Source: Ilyonectria destructans | Lineage: Eukaryota > Ascomycota > Sordariomycetes > Hypocreales > Nectriaceae | Assembly: GCA_020740775.1 (NCBI GenBank) | Contig: JAHEWK010000023.1 | Location: forward strand, 372,001 to 436,000 | Reading direction: 5' to 3' | DNA length: 64,000 nucleotides | Part shown: in pieces, positions 51,757 to 62,995 of the stretch | Layout: every line of letters starts with the position of its first letter | How positions within the stretch are numbered: position 1 is the first letter of the stretch | Program-made: the position numbers and the translations under genes | Notes under the pieces: model-generated | The model's database searches: none | Seen by the model: the letters and a program-made list of their open reading frames with translations, nothing else | Told to the model about the DNA's origin: nothing

Positions 51757-51867
51757 CGAACGACAACGCCACCAAAAATGTGACAATTAGGCTCAGGCCC
51801 TCTGCGTACGTGCTACCGTTTAGGGTTAGCGTGCTTTGGTGCAGAGGGCCTGAGCTTGCTGAGGTAA
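51757..51867. repeat. Diverged solo end of the DUF6589/helicase transposon family
   Basis: Matches the right TIR of the element at 56965-62169 (CGAACGACAACGCCACCAAAAATGTG..., GCTCAGGCCCTCTG..., ending CTGAGGTAA) with clear divergence and a shorter loop. The partner end was not found nearby. The outer stem GCTCAGGCCCTCTGC / GCAGAGGGCCTGAGC (51791-51805 and 51841-51855) is a perfect 15-bp pair. It lies about 180 bp upstream of the chromodomain gene start and so may be in its promoter. Confidence 0.82.
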
Positions 51868-56761: not shown

Positions 56762-56955
56762 TGATACGAAAAGAGGCGATGGCCAAGGGCCAGAGGCCCT
56801 AGGGGGCACGAAGGGCCAGAGAGCTGCAATAGCAGGTGATGGATTGTATTGTTGTATGAAGAAGAATGATGAAGAAGCAAAGTCAAAAGGGCCCTGCAGG
56901 CCCTTTTGAGGCATTGCTCACGTGACTGATGATCCTCACGTGATTTCACGTATCA
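56762..56955 (-). repeat. LTR (left) of the nested non-autonomous element
   Basis: 194 bp, identical by eye to 62802-62995. Contains two CACGTGA motifs near the outer end on the minus strand. Confidence 0.92.
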
Positions 56956-56964
56956 TATGCCGCA

Positions 56965-57109
56965 TTACCTCAGTTCCTCAGGCCCTCTGTACCGGTGGCG
57001 GCTATGCGCGCTTACCAAAGCGCGCTAACCCGAACGGGTAACACCTACACAGAGGGCCTGAGCCCAATTTCCACATTTTTGGTGGCGTTGTCGTTCGCGG
57101 CTTTGTAAT
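56965..57109. repeat. Left TIR with branched-hairpin potential
   Basis: Within the TIR, CTCAGGCCCTCTGT (56977-56990) pairs perfectly with ACAGAGGGCCTGAG (57049-57062). Inside this outer stem two small stems can form: GCGCGCT / AGCGCGC (57006-57012, 57019-57025) and ACCCG / CGGGT (57028-57032, 57035-57039). The right TIR (62025-62169) is the exact inverse copy, with its hairpin at 62072-62157. Confidence 0.9.
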
Positions 57110-57205
57110 CATGCCATTCGTTCTTGCTCAACAGAAAATTTGCATGCGTTTGCAGTCAATTGTCAATTTGCGCCACCATTAATACATCTACATACCACTC
57201 TGGAT

Positions 57206-59714
57206 ATGACATCCGAAGCTTCGTCCACTACGGCCACACCTGAAGGCAGCACGTCTGGCTCTTCGCTGCTGCCACCCGTCAACAACAACCGCAGACGATC
57301 ACCCCGCTCAGATGCTGAGAAGCTCGATATTGTATGCAATTTTATGCGAAACGAGCTCCGTTGGGGTGTTGCCGACCTTGTCACGGCATTAGCTTCCTCT
57401 GAAGGTTCTAATAATACTCGTCGAAAGGCTGCATTCGTAGCAGCGGCCTACAAGGACTCTGAGGTCCTGAGGTCCTACTTTCGCGATGCGGATCAACTGT
57501 GGGGTGACGGCAGGCAGTCTATCATCGAGACATTGGATCTGGGCGACAATGAGCTACGGAGAGAGGTGGAAAAACTAGGAACTATAGCACCATTTAACAA
57601 GTTCGATCCAACTTCCAAGAATGGAGACTTCGACGCGCTCGACATGGACCAAACCCTAAATACGATACACAATGAGGCACCTCTGTTACTACAGCTTATC
57701 AGAGGCATCATGGCTCCTGAATCCCGGCGGAAGTATCAGCGCCAAAAAGAACCAGCTGCTCGAATTGTCGCCATCATATCAATCCTCTGCTTCTCGCAGC
57801 GCCAAAACACCTGTACCGGCTTTCAGACGACCCTAGGCCTCTACCTCCATTCTCAAGGTGTGAAGCGCCAACAGCTGGAGCTCCTTGGTCAACTCGGACT
57901 TGTCGTCAGTTACAACACCGTCATCCGAGCCATCAAAGAACAATCAACTCGGGCTGCGGCACGAGTAGAAAGAATGGGGCAGAGTGACGAGTCCGTGACG
58001 TCGTACGATAATTTCGAGGTAATGGAAGGCGTCAAGGAGCAGCGGGTTGATCATCAAGGTACCTTCCATTCGGTGACGACGGGCCAGGTCATTCAAGGCA
58101 TTGAAATACCGTCTGGTGGACTGCGACAAGATATGCTTGATTCTCGGGCGGAAATATGCGCCAGTGACGTCTTCCTGGCCCCCGGGAATCGGGATGACGA
58201 TATTAATCGTCAGGTATGTATTGATCCTTCATGCCCATGGCTTGGTGTTGAACCGTCTTCAGTAGATATCACGATACTTTTCCTACGAAGCTATCAACAC
58301 GATCTTCTCGAACGCCATCCCGGACGCTGCAAGGAAGCAACGTCCAGCAATGCCCGTTGTCGATGTTCTCGAACCTGTCAAGACTGTCCATTGCTCCCTT
58401 GGTCCTATTCCTCATGACGAGAGCAGTAATGCTGGTAATATCCTGATTCTTGAGAATATCTTTCAACATCAATATCACCTACCCGATTCCGCCTTTGAGC
58501 AGCGTTTATTCCTCATCTACGGTGACCAGAAGACCACGCAGCGGATTCGTTCGATTAAGCAACGCAGGGAAGAAGCTCAGCGGCCTTGCGACAGGCTACA
58601 ATGGGCGCTACCAGTACCGGCGCTCTTCCACCTCCGTATGAACTACCTCTACATGATATCCAGACTCCACTTTGGCGGTCCTGGCAGCGATCAATCCACG
58701 TTATATGACGCCATGAACTTCTGGACAAGGAAAAGGATCAGCAAATCCAGCGCTGATTTCTACGCCCTAGAGCAGCTGATCATCCATAGCTTCCAGGCTA
58801 GAGTGTGCGCTTTGCTCTGGAATATGCTTGCTCAGTCTGGGCAGGGGATAGGCCTCGAGTTCGAAGACATCGCTCGAATGCTGGCTATTCACGATGCTGG
58901 AACCTTCTCACAACTCTTGGATAGGATCGTCGATTCTTACGGCAAATATGCCCGCTCGACTGATGACGAGGAGCTTCGGAACCACATTCTGTTCTTGCAG
59001 CACACTCAGACCTACCTGCTCCTGAAGTACTCAATCAAGCATGCGGATCTCGGCCTCTTGCGCCGAGCCATTGACCGCTGCTGCGTGTATTTCCATGGCT
59101 CAGGGCAATCGAGATATGCGTTTGAGATGCTGTACCTTCAGCGTCTCACGTCAACGCGTGCTGCCACCCCGGAATTACAACGCGCGATACTTGCAAACGG
59201 ACTTGTAAATCGTCAGGGCAAGGCGGATAGCTGGTATGAGACAGACAGGCTCGTGGAATTCCACAATGGCACTCTCAGGAAGCTACTCAACGCCAAACGT
59301 GGATCTTCTCTTACGCTGGATTATCTCTTCGAGCACTGTGCTCTAAATACCGACTTCTTTGCCACTCTTGCCAAGCAGACAGAATCCTTTTACGGCATTC
59401 ATCGGAGTAGCAAACATCCAGAGAAATCAGCGGAACGTGATATTAGGGTGATGGCTCAACGCTTATCGCACAGCAGGTCAATCGCTCTGCACAGTGGACG
59501 GACGGTTAAGCATAAAGCTACCGATGTGTTGGCAGCAGGGGCAATGTGCATTGCCGGCAAAGCGATAGCCAAGTTCAACAGAATGGCATGCAGCGTCGAC
59601 TATGATTACTTGGAAGGAGATGAAGATGAACTAGACGATGGACAGGAAGACGAAGATGAAATCGACGAGGAACTTGGCCATTTTTTTGCAGTTGATCATG
59701 CCGACGAGGAGTAG
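57206..59714 (+). CDS. DUF6589-type protein, putative transposase
   Basis: Exons 57206-58213 and 58266-59714 join in phase across a 52-bp intron (GTATGT...CAGTAG), giving 818 residues. The Ser/Thr/Pro-rich N-terminus is followed by helical DNA-binding-like sequence (RSDAEKLDIVCNFMRNELRW). Then comes a block usual in such proteins (RKYQRQKEPAARIVAIISIL, HSQGVKRQQLELLGQLGL, VVSYNTVIRAIKE). Exon 2 has the DUF6589-like core: LFLIYGDQKTTQRIRSIKQR, then PALFHLRMNYLYMISRLHFG and FWTRKRISKSS. The C-terminus is acidic. The GDQ Asp and later acidic and His residues could be an RNase-H-like active site, which is inference. The first in-frame ATG after the TIR was taken as start. It is the most likely transposase because nothing else in the element could cut DNA. 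Confidence 0.8.
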
Positions 59715-59735
59715 AAGGGACTGATGTCTCCTGAT

Positions 59736-61696
59736 TTATCTATCGAGTTTGAGCTTTCGGAGCGTTGCTTGAAGGCATGCGTCCTGTATCACCTCGAGGA
59801 CCTCCTTGCCGTACGAAGCCAGATCACCCCATTCCCCGTTGACTGCGTGTGCTAATGAACTAATAGAAGTAACCGTTGCACCCGTTCTTGATATCATGTT
59901 TACAGCTTTATCTGGAAGGATAAGCTCAGCTGGTGCAGCTGTGATAAAAGTCGGAAACAAGGTGCATGCTGCCTTTGCATCTCGCCACTCGACCAAAGCC
60001 AACTTCACCGCTTCGGTGATGTGCTTTTGAGATTGAACAATCCTGACAGGCCGCCCAGCCTTGCTGGAAGGTATCTTGACGTCGTCCCCTGCGCATTTGC
60101 TACAGCAGGAAACTGCCTCTGTCGGACGAGTGCATAATGCGCGGTTTTCGCCGAAGAACCTGAGTATGCCTCGCCGGATGCAAGTTGAACGATTGATTAA
60201 TTCCCATATGCCTCGTGGTAAAGCGGATCGCTTCTCGCGCTCCGTCATCCCCTTTTTGAAGGATCGAAGCGGCAAGTGTTCCATACTCTCCCCAAAACAC
60301 CAGGCAGGAACTAACCAGACGAACTTACCGCAGATTGCCTTACCCCGTGCAGCTCGGCCGGCCCGCTGCAATAAAGCCCCCATGCTGGGTGGGACCCCCC
60401 ACTGAACGACGAGTCGGATATCTGGATTATCAATACCCATTCCCATGGCATCTGTGGCGACGATGATGCGATGCATTGAGCTATCCAAGACGCTCTCTGT
60501 GTCAGGCTTTTCGAGCTCTGTGGATATACGCCTCTTATCAGGTTCTGCAAGCTGTGAATGATATGCCTGGACGGTATTGATGGCTGCCGTCTTTGAACAA
60601 CCTGCCCGAATGAGTAGCGTTCTCAGTGCCCCGACCGCCTTCATGATCCGCGTTATCGAGTCAAGATAGACTATGGTCTTCGGAATTGTCTTGCAACAGG
60701 CACGACTGTCAGATCCTGCTCCCATCCGTTGATGTCGAGTTCTTGTGAAGAGTGCTTGAGCAGCAGCTGTACCGCCGCTTTTGAATGCCTCTCTTGCCAT
60801 ACTCTCCCTTCTCTCCTTAACAGCCTTCTCGATTGCCGCCTGCACCGGTTTAACAAGGAACTCTAGATCGCGGAAACCGTCCATCCGATACTGAATTGCC
60901 TGAATTTCGAATGTTATGTTGGGTCTGTCAATGGAGGTTCGTTGAATGCGAACGGAAGGGTCGAATCCGCTGAGATCTCGAACCTCAGCCAGCGTAACTG
61001 GATCAAGCGTTGCAGAACATCCCAGCCAAGGCACAGACCTGCTAATCAGATCTCGCAGCAAAGCCAATCCGCTGTATGAACTCCTCCAACGCAGACCCCA
61101 CTCGCTGACCACGTGTAATTCGTCGATGGCCACCAATACGAGATGATCTTGAAAGGCCTGGTCGTATAGGACCTCCGTCTTGAACCTCTCTGACAATGCA
61201 ATTTCTGGACTCAAAAGCACTGGGCCCCTCTGTTCAGCCGTGATGTTCGGTTGGCAACTGTCAACATGGAATTCCTACCGTGCGTGTATTTGCCGATTCG
61301 GATCTCATTAAGCAACGCGGCTTTATTTGACTGGCCGTTTAATACGCAAGGCCTGCAGTTGGGTATTCGAGCAATGGACTTGGCCTGCGGTGAAGATCAG
61401 TTATTTCATTGTTTTCCCATAATTGTCTGTGTGTCTCGCCACCGACTGACCTGGCCCTCTTCAAGCAGATTCAAGGGCATAATCATGAGACAAATGCCGC
61501 CTCGTAATGCCGGAATCGCTTGGAATACGGCACTCTTGCCCCATCCGGTAGGTGCAATCAGGATTAGGTCCTGCTGGTCGACAGCGAGTCTTCGTATTGC
61601 TTCTACCTGGCCGTCCCGGGGAGGGAAGTTGAGGAGGGTTGCCAATGTCGAGGGCAATGACTCAGGATCAGGGCAACACAATGGGGTATGTAGCAT
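59736..61696 (-). CDS. RecQ-like superfamily 2 DNA helicase
   Basis: Three exons on the minus strand (61696-61451, 61384-61279, 61219-59736) with 66- and 59-bp GT-AG introns give about 611 residues. Motifs in order: RDGQVEAIRRL (Q-motif-like), LIAPTGWGKSAVF (Walker A), GKYTHVLLSPEIALS (Ib), LVAIDELHVVSEWG (DExH box, here DELH), WLGCSATLDP (III), then lobe 2 with IIVATDAMGMGIDNPDIR (V) and QWGVPPSMGALLQRAGRAARG (VI). A Cys cluster (CTRPTEAVSCCSKC) follows, like the RecQ zinc site. It is shorter than cellular RecQ and has no HRDC-like end. Encoded inside the transposon and convergent with the putative transposase, so it probably helps excision, strand unwinding or replication of the element. 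Confidence 0.88.
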
Positions 61697-62024
61697 CACG
61701 ATCAGTAGCGGAGGCTTCTATGTATCCCCAACTGTAATTTTCAAGAATAATTGAGGGCATCTTTTGCTGTTGTCATGTAACGGGCTGGGCCGTTGATATG
61801 TATTCGGCTAATGTCGATACCCTCGACGCCACTAAATGAAGGCAAAGCTCTTCGCAACCCCTGAGCTCGAGTATGTAGCTAGGTGCCAGCTCCACGCGAG
61901 CAACTTGTTGGTTTCCAAGCACGCTTCCGGCTGAATAAGCCCCGTGCCCCTTACATGTCAGGCGTACGAGTAATCAGTCGATGAAACAGATATTGAAGAT
62001 GGTGAATGGTAGTGCGTTTCGCAA

Positions 62025-62169
62025 ATTACAAAGCCGCGAACGACAACGCCACCAAAAATGTGGAAATTGGGCTCAGGCCCTCTGTGTAGGTGTTACCCGT
62101 TCGGGTTAGCGCGCTTTGGTAAGCGCGCATAGCCGCCACCGGTACAGAGGGCCTGAGGAACTGAGGTAA
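62025..62169. repeat. Right TIR of the DUF6589/helicase transposon
   Basis: Exact inverted copy of 56965-57109, ending CTGAGGTAA against the ATGCCGCA duplication. Confidence 0.93.
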
Positions 62170-62442
62170 ATGCCGCACACAAAAAGAGACTCTACTGTCC
62201 TCAGTAGGCAAGACAAGGATAGAGCCTAGATCCATTTCCTTCCAAAGTTCCTTGCCAAATCCATCCGCGAGAAATATGCCTCTCATACCGTAAGACGATC
62301 TTGTCTGCATTGGTCGGTCGGCCGGTCGGTCGGCTGCTTGGTGTTGCTATTCAGGCCCAGCGAAGGGGACAGCTTTGAGGGGGATCGCCGGTATCCAAAG
62401 GAGTTGAACCAACGGGATCCAAAGAGTGCCGCGAGGGCTGTG

Positions 62443-62775
62443 GTGCCGCGAGGGCTGGGTGCTCAAGAGAGAGCCGGTGTTCGAGAGAGAGCCGGTGCTT
62501 AAGAGAGCTGGTGCTCGGGAGAGCTGGTGCTGAGACGGGCTGGTGCTCAGAAGAGAGCTGGTGCTGAGACGGGCTGGTGCTCGGGAGAGCTGGTGCTGAC
62601 GGGCCGGTGTCAGGAGCGCAACTAAGGCGAGTCGGCTAAGATAGGCGATGCTTGAAGAAGCTGGTGCACAGAGGCTGGTGCCATCAAAGCTGGTATCGCA
62701 AAGCCATGGGCGACTGAAGCGGGTGCTGTCGAAGCTGGTGCTGTCAAAGCTGGTGCTGTCAAAGCTGGTGACCAA
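62443..62775. repeat. Tandem repeat inside the non-autonomous LTR element
   Basis: Degenerate units built on GAGCTGGTGCTGAGACGGGCTGGTGCTC (62443-62600), then 15-bp units GCTGGTGCTGTCAAA (about 62720-62772). All sit between the end of the nested transposon and the right LTR. Confidence 0.8.
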
Positions 62776-62801: not shown

Positions 62802-62995
62802 TGATACGAAAAGAGGCGATGGCCAAGGGCCAGAGGCCCTAGGGGGCACGAAGGGCCAGAGAGCTGCAATAGCAGGTGATGGATTGTATTGTTGTATGAA
62901 GAAGAATGATGAAGAAGCAAAGTCAAAAGGGCCCTGCAGGCCCTTTTGAGGCATTGCTCACGTGACTGATGATCCTCACGTGATTTCACGTATCA
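62802..62995 (-). repeat. LTR (right) of the nested non-autonomous element
   Basis: 194 bp, identical by eye to 56762-56955. Followed by the CATAG target copy. Confidence 0.92.

Follow-up and report, generated by a model that had tools for sequence, protein, structure and literature searches.

A DUF6589-encoding DNA transposon of Ilyonectria destructans with a predicted DDE transposase, an optional RecQ-like helicase gene and ends spaced from CACGTG

The window analyzed here, a 64,000-nt stretch of the Ilyonectria destructans genome (assembly GCA_020740775.1, contig JAHEWK010000023.1, positions 372,001 to 436,000), harbors at positions 56965-62169 a 5205-bp DNA transposon bounded by perfect terminal inverted repeats (TIRs) and an 8-bp target site duplication, in which a gene for a DUF6589 protein is joined by one for a RecQ-like helicase. 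The left TIR (56965-57109, forward strand, 145 bp, terminus TTACCTCAG) and the right TIR (62025-62169, reverse strand, 145 bp) are mutually 100% complementary over their 145 nt, bearing out the perfect repeats reported in an earlier reading of this DNA, hereafter the sequence-only reading. The duplication ATGCCGCA occupies 56957-56964 on the left and 62170-62177 on the right, and the unoccupied site reads ..ATCATATGCCGCACACAAAAAG... The motif TCACGTGA is located at 56936-56943, with 21 nt (13 nt plus the 8-bp duplication) between it and the element. Both open reading frames are intact and, as already described in that reading, belong to uninterrupted spliced genes arranged tail to tail, the stop codons being 21 nt apart instead of the 22 bp it had given.

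The DUF6589 gene lies on the forward strand and consists of exon 1 (57206-58213) and exon 2 (58266-59714, stop included), separated by a 52-bp GT..AG intron; its product of 818 aa shows no internal stop, and exon 2 matches Pfam PF20231 with an E-value of 2.6e-72. When P0007 and P0018 were scanned against Pfam-A with hmmscan at E up to 10, DUF6589 was the sole match. A structural search, which the sequence-only reading had proposed for this protein, was carried out with a model of a full-length Metarhizium relative built from a 75-row alignment and rated good, and exclusively DDE transposases or RAG recombinase (among them Hermes, P element, Tn5, ISCth4, and RAG1) were found at ranks 1 to 29, in matches to this prediction that are distant and for which Foldseek alone never fell below E 0.001. 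In the predicted fold, a helical insertion interrupts an RNase H-like core, an arrangement also seen in Hermes and the P element. Both alignment and model place the acidic motifs YDNF, GDQK, and YAFE as expected for a DDE triad, and the predicted catalytic triad consists of D268 in YDNF (exon 1), D423 in GDQK and E623 in YAFE (both exon 2); exceptions are confined to single rows, the second D being replaced by N in P0022 and the first motif being altered in P0038, while P0020, P0030, and P0031 are partial rows. By prediction only, the protein exhibits the RNase H-like core and the three acidic residues in order that characterize the DDE/D RNase H-like class. Because of this predicted fold, a three-copy helicase-less relative with the same ends (family B, described below), and a ratio of nonsynonymous to synonymous substitution rates (dN/dS) of 0.16 between the DUF6589 genes of families A and B, the DUF6589 protein is very probably the transposase of the element, as the sequence-only reading had proposed. 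Homologs of this protein occur in several fungal groups, and a likely function is herewith supplied for a Pfam family whose function was so far unknown.

The host genome comprises 71.7 Mb in 74 contigs (designated C below). A search of it with the TIR gave hits at 18 places, of which ten, including the two of the window itself, match at 100%; these ten, more than chance would give, correspond to four full copies plus one split copy. The earlier view of a young DNA transposon is supported. The full copies, here called family A, are located on C16 (the window), C32, C24, and C9; the C32 copy is identical to that of the window, and those on C24 and C9 carry the same four differences. On C31 a fifth copy has been split and rearranged: its parts (113382-114117 and 144332-148807; L022 and L023), divided at a shared 7-bp stretch, face opposite ways with about 30 kb between them, as the outcome of either an inversion or a nested insertion. 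Family B comprises three copies on C14, each of 3363 bp with 192-bp TIRs and the same ends as family A, whose DUF6589 gene exhibits 83% nucleotide identity and in which the helicase gene is absent. Outside families A and B, a DUF6589 gene lies intact at C14:539769 (family C) and another, decayed, at C10:303848, which brings the DUF6589 places in the genome to ten. Within the window, the element is preceded, 5 kb upstream, by a lone family-B-like end at 51757-51867 that matches the TIR at 88% across 84 bp; searches found no partner end, and no CACGTG 8-38 bp outside it.

The full copies share their ends, and target site duplications of 8 or 9 bp were found at all of them except C9. Besides the 8 bp of the window, they read ATGCCGCAC at C32 and CCCAGTCCT at C24 (9 bp each) and, in family B, GAACACCA at C14:284996 (8 bp), AGTCAGTTG at C14:915730 (9 bp), and AGGACTGG plus T or G at C14:590096 (8 bp, or 9 with one mismatch); the 8-bp length given in the sequence-only reading holds for the window copy and has to be widened for the family. 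The C9 copy has no duplication of its own, probably due to recombination, and the CTATCATCC common to its left flank and to the right flank of C31 is as expected after recombination between copies. Among small relatives, duplications of 8 bp were read at C73 (GTTGAAGC), C24:254819 (CACACGCA), and C26 (TCCAGATG), and of 9 bp at C36 (ACTCACGAA) and, with one mismatch, at C19:78879 (GGAACTCGG/GGAGCTCGG). Two small relatives at C24 254819-255522 are separated by the 8-bp duplication alone, as if both had inserted at one site. Paralogous unoccupied places spanning the junction were detected for the window site (seven), C14:915730 (13, with 79-100% identity), and C24 (two), and none was found in the genome for the C14:284996 target. 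The C7 paralog matches the entire 291-nt joined window site at 98%; of two unoccupied stretches read in part, L084 agrees with the 9-bp duplication and contains the whole motif, and L079, from the C7 paralog, agrees with the window duplication and starts inside the motif (ACGTGA). In the surroundings of the window element we also observed a short degenerate tandem array beside the right flank (62457-62690, unit near GAGCTGGTGCT) and a perfect 168-bp direct repeat (56762-56929 and 62802-62969) whose two copies enclose the element together with some 630 bp on its right side, either copy having one TCACGTG inside and a second one 18 bp beyond.

At the insertion sites, the palindrome CACGTG, usually as TCACGTGA, was found on one side of all seven complete A and B copies, at a gap of 22 bp from the element in the window, 23 in C32, C24, and C9, and 22, 23, and 22 in the three B copies. 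In the window and C32 copies the motif is next to the end at which the transposase gene starts, in C24 and C9 next to the other end. In a genome-wide census of CACGTG near element ends, with reversed sequence as control, 38 occurrences were counted within 8-38 bp against two in the control; at 39-69 bp the counts were eight and four, four of the eight being second motifs of sites already counted, and the permuted palindrome GTGCAC gave six against one, of which four belong to ends that CACGTG had picked out as well. The nearest motif lay at 19-23 bp in 28 of 34 distinct ends, two of the other six (C18:487946 and C33:73584) having a second CACGTG at 22, and in one set of 58 ends all 18 that bear the motif have it at 19-23. 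The distance follows the type of end, with 19 at CCATTT-type ends (C3:99178, C14:542351, C18:305721) and at C24:254819 (CCAGTG), 20 at one CAGACCATTT end (C18:268699), and 21-23 at the A, B, and D-type ends read. Since the distance varies by subfamily and the motif stays constant, we infer that the spacing would be set by the element's own machinery. Two counts weigh against so general a rule: at 62 of 89 ends an exact motif is missing at this distance from the side of the end itself, and three of 13 complete pairs lack an exact CACGTG, two of them carrying CACATG (at 22 and 19) and one neither, which leaves the motif on one side in ten. When the 800-bp stretches flanking the window, C24, C9, C14:284996, and C14:915730 copies were compared with each other at E 1e-3, no match appeared apart from 32 bp that the C14:284996 flank shares with C32:6075. 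A single motif on C9 has a different element on each side, and the A copy on C24 and the B copy at C14:590096 occupy the same position of paralogous targets; the rule, if true, would explain both elements lying side by side and such repeated hits.

We lean slightly toward the view that a lineage of eukaryotic DDE transposons chooses its landing sites by a palindrome: it would recognize TCACGTGA and insert to one or the other side of it, some two helical turns away and with a spacing particular to each subfamily. In that case it would be the first transposon of the cut-and-paste type in eukaryotes for which insertion at a constant spacing from a short motif of the transcription-factor type is known. 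The rule, first seen in this follow-up and absent from the sequence-only reading, was not found in searches of the open-licence literature, in which a paper on rice mPing was the sole match for CACGTG combined with duplication and transposase. A short palindrome fixing the landing site of a eukaryotic transposon would be unusual and is directly testable, and a motif-guided insertion tool is conceivable.

The second gene of the window element, on the reverse strand, encodes a helicase of 611 aa in three exons: exon 1 (61696-61451), with the motif APTGWGKS that we take to be Walker A-like, exon 2 (61384-61279), and exon 3 (61219-59736, stop included). Several splicing options were open, and the one adopted rests on the fit of exon 2 to the homologs P0073, P0075, and P0093; the homolog P0083 lacks the corresponding part. 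The protein was typed by matches to Pfam Helicase_C and DEAD, and 37 solved structures matched at E up to 1e-5, including RecQ, RecQ5, WRN, and BLM. Of 16 helicase matches in the host genome, the five at 100% are those of the five family A copies. On C10 a decayed helicase (40%) and the decayed DUF6589 gene are arranged tail to tail, and at C14:531459 a second RecQ-like gene (open frame of 674 aa, 40% identical, matched in two pieces) is convergent with the family C DUF6589 gene at 7.5 kb (C14 531459-541004), with a frame between them that looks by eye like a retroelement gag; these two are only likely to form an element pair. The remaining matches score low. In the protein database, 12 contig sizes (4877, 5085, 1974, 4867, 5003, 4878, 4525, 5178, 6184, 5515, 5132, and, for F. 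solani, 3212146) are common to the DUF6589 homolog lists and the best 120 of 382 helicase homologs, an agreement by size alone, of unread contigs, which suggests that the two homologs share a contig. In F. solani, the locus tags MRS44_013102 and MRS44_013124 are not neighbors. The pair looks old and recurrent, though family B does without the helicase; the module proposed in the sequence-only reading is conserved in part. As family B has no helicase gene, this gene is an optional part of such a transposon and its product is dispensable, at least in cis; the helicase is probably an accessory that only helps, a point held less firmly than the one on spacing.

Several alternative explanations bear on these observations. 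It is somewhat more probable than not that the element is an ordinary member of AcademH, the helicase-bearing lineage among Academ transposons, and that the Academ transposase merely goes by the name DUF6589 in Pfam. AcademH is described from animals and fungi, with a helicase and duplications of 9 or 10 bp (PMC10045372). Here, a RecQ-type gene lies inside the TIRs and 9-bp duplications occur at C32, C24, C14:915730, and C36, but 8 bp are duplicated at the window, C14:284996, C73, C24:254819, and C26, that is, in A, B, and small relatives alike. The name DUF6589 was not found in a search of the open-licence literature, and AcademH membership is compatible with the CACGTG target rule. A second explanation, to which we give somewhat less than even weight, attributes the spacing to a host basic helix-loop-helix (bHLH) factor of the Cbf1/Pho4 type that tethers the transposase, in place of recognition by the element itself. 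Palindromic CACGTG is the classic binding site of bHLH proteins, and elements on either side of one motif fit such tethering; the distance, however, changes from one subfamily to another and the motif does not, so the element sets it at least partly.

A third explanation makes the helicase the key enzyme of a replicative, peel-and-paste movement, a mode that the sequence-only reading had raised as possible. The left TIR contains a subterminal inverted repeat with a 14-bp stem (CTCAGGCCCTCTGT/ACAGAGGGCCTGAG) that forms a hairpin, and the family A hairpin folds as single-stranded DNA with a z of -4.9. Ends of the A and B families carry such a repeat, as do the C-type ends L047, L051, and L054, with compensatory changes in the stem (CTCAGGCCCTCTG/CAGAGGGCCTGAG in A and B, CTCAGGCCATTTG/CAAATGGCCTGAG in L047); by script, nine out of 24 distinct listed TTACCTCAG sequences, L031 and L050 included, lack an exact stem of at least 8 bp, some of the nine being chance matches and not ends. 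Although these hairpins and the presence of a helicase would suit peel-and-paste, the TIRs at both ends, the 8-9 bp duplication, the predicted DDE fold, and the helicase-less family fit integration of the cut-and-paste type, which makes replicative movement improbable; nothing tested supported it. The simplest reading of the hairpin would be a pair of inverted transposase-binding sites. Finally, that CACGTG is merely a feature of repeated target DNA often hit is very improbable, since, even with further unoccupied genome copies of three of the five target sequences (window, C24, and C14:915730), the five flanks are unrelated apart from the 32-bp match and all keep the motif at 22-23 bp, and the C9 motif is flanked by two different elements.

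We therefore favor, with good though not full confidence, a recently active DNA transposon in which DUF6589 is likely a DDE transposase that integrates with a stagger of 8-9 bp at a fixed distance from CACGTG, the motif being read by the transposase complex or perhaps by a host bHLH protein. This proposal builds on the observed ends, copies, 8-9 bp duplications, unoccupied targets, and motif spacing, together with a predicted fold and triad. The DUF6589 transposase would pair the TIRs, its complex would dock near CACGTG, directly or perhaps via a bound host bHLH protein, and the ends would be joined with the 8-9 bp stagger about two helical turns from the motif. The RecQ helicase may, with less assurance, help to process the ends or to drive repair synthesis across the gap at the vacated site, much as BLM of the host does once a P element has excised.

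Compared with known systems, AcademH appears to be the nearest described lineage, judged by description only from its helicase and duplication length: both are DNA transposons with a helicase in fungi or animals, with 9-10 bp duplications there (PMC10045372) and 8 or 9 bp here, and a CACGTG rule was not found for AcademH in searches of the open-licence literature. KolobokH is likewise described as a fungal lineage encoding a RecQ helicase (PMC9587614), but the present element has varied targets and its helicase is a separate, oppositely oriented gene. Kolobok inserts at TTAA; in place of a TTAA duplication we found ATGCCGCA, CCCAGTCCT, AGTCAGTTG, and others. Duplications are usually of 8 bp in hAT and of 8 bp in the fungal KDZ (Zisupton) elements (PMC12730594), and here both 8 and 9 bp were seen. 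Hermes, of the hAT group, and the P element share the predicted RNase H-like core with its helical insertion, but differ from the present element in its long TIRs with internal hairpins, its RecQ gene, and the lack of a sequence profile match. Pfam-A has both a hAT profile and a KDZ transposase profile; the hAT profile was not among the matches of the window proteins or of P0007 and P0018, and the scan of the latter two, with DUF6589 alone, returned no KDZ domain. Fixed-distance integrators are known in Tn7, at attTn7, and Ty3, at TFIIIB, which also insert at a set distance from a recognized site, whereas here a palindromic hexamer of common occurrence serves as the site, and what moves is a eukaryotic element with TIRs and a predicted DDE transposase.

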